DNA of 64,000 nt from Stappia sediminis (GTDB lineage Bacteria; Pseudomonadota; Alphaproteobacteria; Rhizobiales; Stappiaceae): positions 558,001-622,000 of the forward strand of contig NZ_WUMV01000001.1 of assembly GCF_009826895.1 (NCBI RefSeq), written 5' to 3'. The notes under the pieces are model-generated. The model saw only the letters and a list, made by a program, of their open reading frames with translations, was not told the DNA's origin and ran no database searches. Positions within the stretch are counted from its first letter, which is position 1; each line of letters begins with the position of its first letter. The position numbers were made by a program, and so were the translations under genes. This document shows, one piece after another, positions 10,425 to 16,605 of the stretch.

Positions 10425-11582
10425 CTAATCCCTAGTAATGAAATTTGCGCGATCGAATAATTCGTCAAAAGTGAGAATTTCTAGTGTGCGGGTGTCGCGA
10501 CGATACAGTTCGAACGTGTCGCGCTTAACCGTTGCATCACGGAGATTACCAGCCTGATCGAACTCTGAGCTATTGCCAATAACAAGGATTGTTTTCGCAT
10601 CGCGTGTTCGAGCCTCAAGGCGGCGGGTGCCGCTTTTGTCAAAATGTTCGCCGGTTTGAGCAGCACTTAACCACTCCGCCTTTTGCTCAAGGACTTGCGA
10701 AATTGCATCCATAAACGCCGTGCTGAATCGCCAAGTGCCTGCGCGCCCCGACTTCTTAGTCTGGAATATGGGAGTGTCCGGCCGTTTGATTTCGACAAGT
10801 ACCGTGTAGTCAGTGAAATTCATAAGGAAATCAACGGTTGGCTTATTACGATTGTCTGTGCCCGCTGCACCTACAACCATTTCTCGGTCGAAAGGCCTCA
10901 TTATTCGGTAGTCGAGGCCGTAGCCGAAAACCCAACTCTCCCTTTCGAAGAAGTCTTGCCAATTGGTTTCAGACCAATCGCCTTCCTCTAGGTGGACACT
11001 GAACTCTTCAAGCGCCTGCCGGCGACCCAAGAGGAGGTTGATTTCCTCCGTCGTCAGGTCGGTGTGGAGTGATCGGAACAGGCGCTCGCGCTCGGAAGCA
11101 TCGAGTTGCTTGATTTTGTTTATGAGTGCGCGATCGGTGGCATCCGTGATGATCTTGGGCCCATCTGCGACGGATATGTCTTCTACCTGAAACCGGTCTT
11201 CATTAGACAGGTCGATAAACTTGATGCGATTCAGAAATTCTAGGAGCCTTTCAAATTCGTCAGACCTGAAAGTGAAGGCGTCTTTTTCGTCGCCCTGATA
11301 CCAATTGCCAACTCGGGACTTGAAAGTTTGCAGCGTCACCCGCTTGATGGATGCGCTATCTTGGCTAATGAGTGCCGTCACCTGCGTCTTTCGCTGATTG
11401 CCGGTAAGGCGCAAACAGAGAGCCCCTTCGACTTCGCCTAGAACAGCACGTTCAGTCCCTTCAAACACGGCGTAAGCCAATCGCAAACGCTCTTCGTTAA
11501 TCGCTCCATGTGTAAAGACCTTACTGAGGTACGTCTTGCCTTCCTTACGAAGCCAAAAAAATCTTTCGTCGTCTTCGCTCAT
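10425..11582 (-). CDS. sduA: Shedu anti-phage defence nuclease (SduA, DUF4263 family)
   Basis: 385 residues. The C-terminal half is the DUF4263 PD-(D/E)xK nuclease: ALEEFSVHLEEGDWSETNWQ (190-209) opens the domain and the catalytic residues are D251 (KPTVDFLM), E264 and K266 (TVLVEIKRPDTPIF), with a downstream Q297 in the helix. The N-terminal ~190 residues are a variable putative sensor region. Shedu is an established single-gene phage-defence system in which a tetrameric nuclease acts on DNA. A GGAAG ribosome site precedes the ATG. The gene is visibly AT-richer than its surroundings and stands between two palindromic repeat elements, suggesting acquisition by transfer. Confidence 0.88.
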   Translation of the reverse strand: MSEDDERFFWLRKEGKTYLSKVFTHGAINEERLRLAYAVFEGTERAVLGEVEGALCLRLTGNQRKTQVTALISQDSASIKRVTLQTFKSRVGNWYQGDEKDAFTFRSDEFERLLEFLNRIKFIDLSNEDRFQVEDISVADGPKIITDATDRALINKIKQLDASERERLFRSLHTDLTTEEINLLLGRRQALEEFSVHLEEGDWSETNWQDFFERESWVFGYGLDYRIMRPFDREMVVGAAGTDNRNKPTVDFLMNFTDYTVLVEIKRPDTPIFQTKKSGRAGTWRFSTAFMDAISQVLEQKAEWLSAAQTGEHFDKSGTRRLEARTRDAKTILVIGNSSEFDQAGNLRDATVKRDTFELYRRDTRTLEILTFDELFDRANFITRD

Positions 11583-15724: not shown

Positions 15725-16418
15725 ATGTTCGTGAGTATTCAAAAGCTGATTTGGATCATGGTGGCGGTCTATGCCGCTGTCTTAGTCACCCTCCTGAGTG
15801 GCAAGGTGCTGGCGGCTCCCGTCGAGGTGCCTTTTCAGGCGGGCAACGTGAAGCCAGGCACGATCCTGGTGAAGAATTCCGAGCGAAGGCTCTACCTCGT
15901 GCAGCGCGGCGGAAAAGCGCTTGCCTATCGCGTGGCCGTGGGAAAACGCGGCAAGGTGTGGACGGGCAGGACCTATATCACCGCCAAATACGTGAAGCCG
16001 GCATGGACGCCGCCTGCAGAGGTGAAACGCGACCTGCCGCATCTGCCGGACCTGATCGCGGGAGGCGCGCCGAACAACCCGATGGGTGTTGCGGCGATGA
16101 CGCTAGTGTGGTGGATTTGAAGTACGCCTCACAATTGCAGCCGCCGCCGGAGCGTATTTCAAATCCGAAAACCACACTAGAAACATACATTCGCTAGTCA
16201 CCCTTTTGAATCTGAAGTTCGTTCAGGGCATGCCGGGCATTGAGACGAACTTCAGATTCGGGTGACTAGCCGGCGGGCAATACGCGATCCACGGCACCAA
16301 CCGACCGCGATCGATCGGCCGCGCGGTGTCCTACGGCTGCATCAGGATGCACAATGAAGATATTTCCGACCTGTTCCAAAGGGTCAAAGTTCGAACGCCG
16401 GTAATTGCCGTCAATTGA
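15725..16418 (+). pseudogene. L,D-transpeptidase (YkuD/ErfK family), interrupted by a palindromic insertion
   Basis: The 5' part reads as an N-terminal membrane anchor/signal (KLIWIMVAVYAAVLVTLLSG) followed by TILVKNSERRLYLVQRGG and NNPMGVAAMTL, then goes out of frame in inserted DNA. The 3' part, from 16270, encodes GGQYAIHGTNRP, VSYGCIRMHNED and a normal C-terminus. Removing 163 bp (16107-16269) restores one frame of 176 residues, with catalytic H135 and C151. The surviving upstream product (131 residues, stop at 16118-16120) lacks both catalytic residues, so it should be inactive. The family cross-links peptidoglycan or attaches lipoproteins to it. An intact family member lies at 38932-39591. 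Confidence 0.85.
16103..16269. mobile_element. Paired palindromic element (REPIN-like), CTAG flanked, inserted in the L,D-transpeptidase gene
   Basis: Unit A (16103-16180) has CTAGTGTGGT/ACCACACTAG ends and an inner GGATTTGAA/TTCAAATCC stem with a 4-base bulge. Unit B (16194-16269) has CTAGTCACCC/GGGTGACTAG ends and an inner 15-bp stem GAATCTGAAGTTCGT/ACGAACTTCAGATTC with a TTTT bulge on the opposite side. B is therefore an inverted relative of A, 13 bp away. CTAG stands at both outer ends, as a 4-bp target duplication would. There is no reading frame inside, so it is non-autonomous. Confidence 0.85.
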
Positions 16419-16464
16419 CCGGGGTAAAAACAGGAACAGACTTGTTTCACGTGTTTCGACTTTG

Positions 16465-16494
16465 ACGGCCGTTTTCCGAACGGCCGTTTTTCTT
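16465..16494 (+). terminator. Intrinsic terminator of the L,D-transpeptidase gene
   Basis: ACGGCCGTT (16465-16473) pairs with AACGGCCGT (16479-16487) over a TTCCG loop and runs into TTTTTCTTT. Confidence 0.88.
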
Positions 16495-16605
16495 TGCGTA
16501 AGAATCGCTTGCGTGGCTTATTTTATTTTGAGGAACAGAGTCAGATTCTTGAGAATTTCATTCAGGTTGGGATCCAGGCCCTAAAACGGCATGGGAGATC
16601 GTTTC

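Follow-up and report, generated by a model that had tools for sequence, protein, structure and literature searches.

A young YkuD pseudogene in Stappia sediminis, interrupted at a CTAG site by a paired-palindrome element with a terminus of IS630 type

Results

The interrupted YkuD gene

An L,D-transpeptidase (YkuD) gene, which codes for a cell-wall enzyme, lies at positions 15725-16418 on the forward strand of the window, the whole 64-kb stretch of Stappia sediminis DNA that was analysed. Reading of the sequence showed that the gene is interrupted by 163 bp (16107-16269) and that the insert, here named E1, is bounded by copies of CTAG at 16103-16106 and 16266-16269. The features of the locus, with the evidence for each, are given below.

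15725-16105, + strand: YkuD 5' fragment, codons 1-127 (open reading frame and Pfam); the open frame runs to the TGA at 16118-16120
16103-16106, + strand: left CTAG (TA at 16104-16105), target site copy (sequence and copy alignments)
16106-16266, + strand: mobile element E1, 161 bp if the duplication is TA; 16107-16269 if CTAG is counted
16103-16180, + strand: palindrome A (CTAGTGTGGT...ACCACACTAG) (alignment, folding and covariation)
16181-16193, + strand: 13-bp linker between palindromes A and B (sequence and alignment)
16194-16269, + strand: palindrome B (CTAGTCACCC...GGGTGACTAG) (alignment, folding and covariation); its right end matches an IS630 terminus
16208-16212, + strand: GAATC in the left arm of palindrome B, a GANTC (CcrM-type) methylation site; partner GATTC at 16255-16259
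16266-16269, + strand: right CTAG (TA at 16267-16268), second target site copy (sequence and alignments)
16270-16418, + strand: YkuD 3' fragment with the HGT...YGC active-site motif and the stop codon (sequence, homologues and Pfam)

The upstream open reading frame (15725-16120) encodes 131 aa and terminates at a TGA inside the insert (16118-16120). In the Pfam search, residues 46-119 of this fragment aligned with positions 3-82 of the 146-position YkuD profile PF03734 (E 4.6e-9), and the 48 residues of the downstream fragment aligned with positions 97-145 (E 2.3e-12). Since the two halves cover complementary parts of the profile, the gene break is proven by homology and not by the open reading frame. 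A spanning frame alone is weak evidence, because one of at least 110 aa also appeared in 18 of 31 other joined E1 flanks in this GC-rich DNA. Codons counted by hand placed the catalytic residues H135 and C151 past the premature stop. This agrees with the numbering in the preliminary description, which had noted that the retained upstream frame lacks the active site, and the 131-aa product would accordingly be inactive.

Homologous loci were then compared across the insertion site. The gene was uninterrupted in 60 of 104 loci (motif running through the site; codons ACN-CTN-GCC or a variant), some of these being one genome present in two collections, and it was interrupted in two, L021 and L045, which are one record fetched twice; the search motif did not fit the other 42, which were left unjudged. 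No judged relative carries E1 at this position. The earlier reading of an L,D-transpeptidase gene broken by a precise and young insertion of a paired palindromic element was thus borne out by the separate Pfam matches and the uninterrupted relatives, and the S. sediminis gene is a young pseudogene. A second, intact allele was absent from the own-genome matches listed (sorted by E-value). Among the same listed matches, the N-terminal YkuD protein has eight weaker ones elsewhere in the genome, which may be paralogues covering for the broken gene.

The ABC-transporter binding protein encoded upstream of the YkuD gene is also found upstream in the sister species (G001, introduced below), in G002 and in Stappia indica (L048); it was not detected at L024, the fourth locus tested, and none of the four stretches from relatives showed the downstream methyltransferase. 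Just downstream of the YkuD gene, at 16433-16500, there is a weak match to a suhB/mmgR-like small RNA (16.3 bits against a gathering score of 41), and a match downstream of the G001 gene scored 25.2 bits.

Structure and covariation of the element

The window copy of E1 folds as DNA at -51 kcal/mol, compared with a mean of -18.4 for shuffled sequences (z -11.2). An alignment was built from 29 copies, namely the window copy and 28 of 36 that were fetched, after eight nested, partial or diverged copies had been dropped. The consensus consists of two palindromes and a linker, with CTAG at all four palindrome feet; the first bases of the aligned copies are CTAG in 17 of the 29 and GTAG in one.

The arms of the palindromes were examined for paired changes. 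Among the 29 near copies, 25 cells had changed in both arms, compared with 7.4 in shuffles, and among 22 wider copies, which include other families of the order, 78 had done so, compared with 27.3; the shuffles ignore relatedness, seven rows belong to both sets, and the window copy served to define the structure. An example from the wider copies is the outer part of palindrome B, where GTCACC/GGTGAC becomes GTGTCC/GGACAC on both sides. These figures support selection on the hairpins, short of proof. The left-arm GAATC was kept in all 22 wider copies and in 23 of the 29 near copies (seven rows in common), and GANTC sits in both arms of palindrome B, not in or at its terminal loop.

At the feet of palindrome A (alignment columns 2 and 80), 8 of 28 copies carry CCAG/CTGG for CTAG on both sides. 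A T-to-C bias of this kind would fit very-short-patch repair and the rarity of CTAG.

No Rfam family matched E1 at its gathering score; microRNA matches below that score were set aside as chance hairpins. A prior description naming E1 was not found in the literature covered, which mostly excludes subscription papers.

Dispersal and insertion polymorphism

A search of the genome for further copies located E1 at 17 distinct places, derived from 24 match rows of which the rest were reverse self-matches or second halves. Fourteen of these copies are full length or nearly so, one of them being split by a nested element, and the initial idea of an isolated element therefore fell away. E1 matches were present in 13 of 61 genomes, the own genome included, and, counting short matches, in 19 of 297 genomes and 12 of 122 genera of the order; per-genome match counts are lower bounds, for E2 (below) as for E1, and copy numbers are meaningless in the 297-genome sample, where two candidates per genome were scored. 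Six genomes from four families outside the own family gave an E1 match of at least 118 bp, and the plasmid search found full-length E1 on nine Roseibium/Labrenzia plasmids. Of the other copies found, the one most similar to the window copy is in another species (96%); its best identity within the own genome is 92%.

Sites lacking the element were sought by joining the flanks of 11 E1 insertions and searching these in S. sediminis (G000), Hongsoonwoonella zoysiae SY4-7 (G001, NZ_JABRXF010000001.1), with which it is grouped in one genus, and G002. Nine joined flanks gave a one-piece match across the junction in G000 or G001 (one also in G002), which represents the site without E1, while the matches of L125 and L128 were essentially one-sided. 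Six of the nine empty junctions were aligned, L130, L144 and L145 being left out, and L127 alone was readable base by base: its empty counterpart (L249) reads GG-CTAG-CATGG with one CTAG, whereas at the filled site E1 has a CTAG on either side. At the other five, short indels or sequence divergence affected the junction. Two insertions are common to G000 and G001 (L126/L142 and L135/L151), so the E1 family was active both before and after the split. E1 has no coding capacity, occurs in many copies and is a dispersed mobile element.

Other E1 copies were considered as gene disruptors. Spanning frames were seen in nine joined flanks, and the six pieces searched from four of these gave no Pfam hit; no further disrupted gene is claimed.

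At some CTAG ends the TAG doubles as a stop codon: an SDR gene of Roseibium terminates at the first CTAG of its neighbouring E1 copy (L311:1501-1504), and an IS630 transposase gene terminates at the element's own final CTAG (L310:2029-2032). E1 begins with G after the TA, so a TAG stop within a CTAG would survive its insertion, and such stop codons are possibly a harmless landing place for E1.

Kinship with IS630 elements

In the plasmid search, the last 32 bp of E1 alone matched nine Rhizobium, Allorhizobium and Agrobacterium records at 93.8%; five of these have an annotated IS630-family transposase gene there and four have no annotation. Three further plasmid records matched one E1 palindrome. 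Two Rhizobium plasmid loci delimit an insertion sequence of about 1.16 kb (1165 bp) with CTAG on both sides, and its protein carries DDE_3 (PF13358, E 6.9e-21) together with several HTH families. The right-end consensus of E1 agrees with the end of this element at 30 of 31 bases and then diverges, and the window copy agrees at 28 of 29. The left ends are weakly alike; no plasmid insertion sequence with the E1 left end was found, the short left-end search giving a chance match only.

Related transposase sequences were also found among the genomes. In the E1-bearing genome G031, of the genus Stappia, a decayed piece of an IS630 element is 77.5% identical over 356 bp and ends similarly; its amino-acid identity to the Rhizobium transposase is 85% over 108 residues. 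G169 has full-length IS630 transposase copies (amino-acid identity 93%), and both of the short E1 matches in this genome lie at such genes; the pattern used for ends gave no match at four transposon copies of G169. DDE_3 (PF13358) was absent from seven of ten genomes searched (G000, G001, G002, G006, G011, G034 and G016), and a relative of the Rhizobium transposase was absent from 13 of 20, including the own genome. Solo right-end matches in G011, G021 and G031 were rejected as autonomous partners, as they look like shortened or decayed copies, with no transposase among the frames listed; a Roseomonas plasmid end match was rejected too, no transposase being annotated within the 3.6 kb examined.

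Because its right end is nearly identical to an IS630 terminus, E1 was filed as an IS630-family MITE. We consider it very probable (roughly 0.88) that E1 is a non-autonomous element of this family, composed of two palindromes and a linker, which inserted at the TA of a CTAG in the YkuD gene. An IS630-type transposase acting in trans would have placed E1 at this TA, across the codons for Leu127 and Ala128, and the insertion would have duplicated the TA inside a preferred CTAG target. Since none was found in the own genome, we infer that the transposase came from elsewhere, either a plasmid or an insertion sequence since lost. IS630 elements duplicate TA. The kinship therefore favours a TA duplication, although the site sequence alone fits TA or CTAG equally; of the 4-bp CTAG duplication proposed at the outset, the CTAG at both ends stood and the 4-bp size was not established.

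A second element at the same site in the sister species

In H. zoysiae, an unrelated element, E2, of about 260 bp with ends GGTGATGGGCCCATAAATAAGG / CCTTATTTATGGGTCCATCACC, interrupts the same gene at the identical position. One nucleotide has been lost shortly upstream of E2, and the resulting frameshift leads to a stop before the insert. The left E2 flank reads CTG where TA would give CTA, which we take as one later substitution. E2 is dispersed: 12 of 41 genomes contain it, and with half-matches counted it gave 24 rows in G000 and 19 rows in G001. Its copies are in many cases, though not all, flanked by TA in YTAR contexts (L191, L192, L202, L206). An insertion sequence of G031 (L244, DUF4096 and DDE_Tnp_1) has an end that matches the end of the G002 E2 copies over 23 bp at 96%; the E2 in the H. 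zoysiae gene has a variant end, and blastn gave no similarity between E2 and the L244 element beyond the ends. E2 is taken here as putatively IS5/IS427-like. The YkuD gene was apparently lost twice, once in each sister species.

The two interrupted genes were compared for selection. Between G000 and G001, dN was 0.048 and dS 0.352 over the first 120 codons; over the 48 codons after the insert, dN was 0.038 and dS 0.745, which indicates purifying selection. Given this selection on the downstream half, both breaks look young, and if neither species translates the second part after insertion, most of the divergence is older than the two insertions. The gene break is caught early.

Rarity of CTAG and the double hit

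CTAG is scarce in the window: base composition predicts 224 sites and 22 were observed, of which four are part of E1 and ten lie in one AT-richer island. That island (GC 49-53% at 10-12 kb) also holds a gene for the Shedu anti-phage protein SduA (10425-11582, - strand; PADLOC PDLC00392, E 1.9e-144; Pfam SduA_C, E 1.6e-28), likely an acquired defence gene.

Scaled up very roughly from the window, a genome would have some 600-1300 CTAG sites. For the insertions not known as shared, about 15 of E1 in one genome and 13 of E2 in the other, these rough counts lead to an expectation of some 0.15 to 0.33 chance double hits. CTAG being this rare, the double hit may be a coincidence; it is worth noting but does not prove that the site is special. 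Besides the YkuD gene, there are four places where one family lies at a CTAG of another: L134 is an E1 copy with an E2 relative nested in it, L130 is one that retains a short piece of such a relative, and at L159 and L160 the E1 copies are adjoined by an E2-like or IS5 element. From this arrangement, CTAG ends left by earlier insertions appear to serve later ones. In L130 (801-979), a short CTAGGGTCCAGACCCTAG palindrome is situated at the inner CTAG of the E1 copy and looks like the leftover of a near-precise loss of an element like the one nested in L134.

Discussion

The assignment of E1 to the IS630 family was weighed against other ways in which the locus could have arisen. Mobilisation by an IS5/IS427-type (DUF4096) transposase, with the IS630 match reflecting convergence on CTAG-flanked ends, has some points in its favour: DUF4096 matched 10 of the 11 genomes searched (both matches in the own genome contain stop codons), several such elements have TA in CTAG/YTAR contexts, and IS427-group elements of Paracoccus mostly generate 2-bp repeats (PMC3281130). 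We regard it as unlikely, because the IS5-type ends seen (GGGTCAGGACCC, GGCCTGTGGGGATT and GGTCGTGTGGACAAA) differ from those of E1, whereas the IS630 end matches at 30 of 31 bases. With its two linked hairpins and a conserved tetranucleotide at each hairpin foot, E1 also recalls a REPIN moved by a REP-associated tyrosine transposase (RAYT). Y1_Tnp (PF01797) had no match in any of nine genomes searched, while 5 of 14 control genomes were positive; together with the target duplication at the one clean empty site (L127/L249) and the existence of an IS630 element with the same end, this makes a REPIN-like origin extremely unlikely.

Two further explanations concern the state of the gene and not the class of the element. 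It is conceivable that the YkuD gene still works, the insert being removed or bypassed by hairpin loss between the CTAG repeats or at the RNA level, so that the allele would act as a switch. Short direct repeats enclose the insert, itself a pair of strong hairpins, the E1 copy at L130 shows an apparent excision remnant of an IS5-type element, and the downstream half bears the mark of purifying selection although both species are interrupted. Recent, independent insertions would give the same dN/dS, however, the H. zoysiae copy with its early frameshift looks like decay, and the own-genome matches listed hold no intact second allele; we judge a working gene very improbable. An assembly or sequencing artefact might be suspected at a repeat in a draft genome of 22 contigs, but it is scarcely credible here: the contig around the locus is 735 kb long, the insert differs in sequence from the other copies found, and it sits at a typical CTAG target with both target copies intact.

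The preferred reading, a non-autonomous IS630-family element, was compared with known repeats. RUP of Streptococcus pneumoniae, with IS630-Spn1, resembles E1 in being non-coding, about 100-170 bp long, directed to TA and present in many copies, as well as in sharing an end with an IS630 element and in being able to inactivate genes (PMC2229807). E1 differs in having two separate palindromes and a linker with only one end matching IS630 closely, and its full-length matching IS630 is found only outside the own bacterial family (a fragment is in G031). YPAL/RU-2 of Yersinia are of similar size, palindromic and mobile between related genomes, but YPAL is described with duplications of 3 to 26 bp, ends without TA and different hosts (PMC2229807). 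The palindromic elements of Rickettsia likewise lie inside protein genes; they are described as fused in frame (PMC2229807, PMC10969869), whereas translation into E1 meets a stop within a few codons.

The CIR (CcrM-associated intergenic repeats) of Caulobacter and Brucella are described as alphaproteobacterial, formed by two long inverted repeats and a linker, with TA at the termini and a conserved GANTC, and they resemble E1 in these features (PMC2229807, PMC10969869). E1 has 163 bp compared with about 110, carries GANTC in the stem arms and not in the terminal loop, and sits inside a gene, while CIR are described as strictly intergenic (PMC2229807, PMC10969869) and their mobility as unclear (PMC2229807). 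The architecture of E1 resembles the plan of an IS630-type MITE and is CIR-like in its two palindromes, TA ends and GANTC. A bolder proposal is that CIR-like paired-palindrome repeats are IS630-family MITEs, and that in CTAG-poor genomes unrelated families end up at the same few CTAG sites and at the CTAG ends that earlier insertions bring with them. We offer this only tentatively and think it rather doubtful; if true, it would solve how such repeats move.

For the YkuD gene itself, the biology is that of ordinary pseudogene formation, with likely paralogues in reserve. The locus is a clear example from nature of two sister species in which unrelated elements have broken one gene at the same dinucleotide. 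The paired-palindrome repeat family of this alphaproteobacterial order gains a plausible motor in IS630, and the polymorphic E1 insertions are material with which that motor can be tested.
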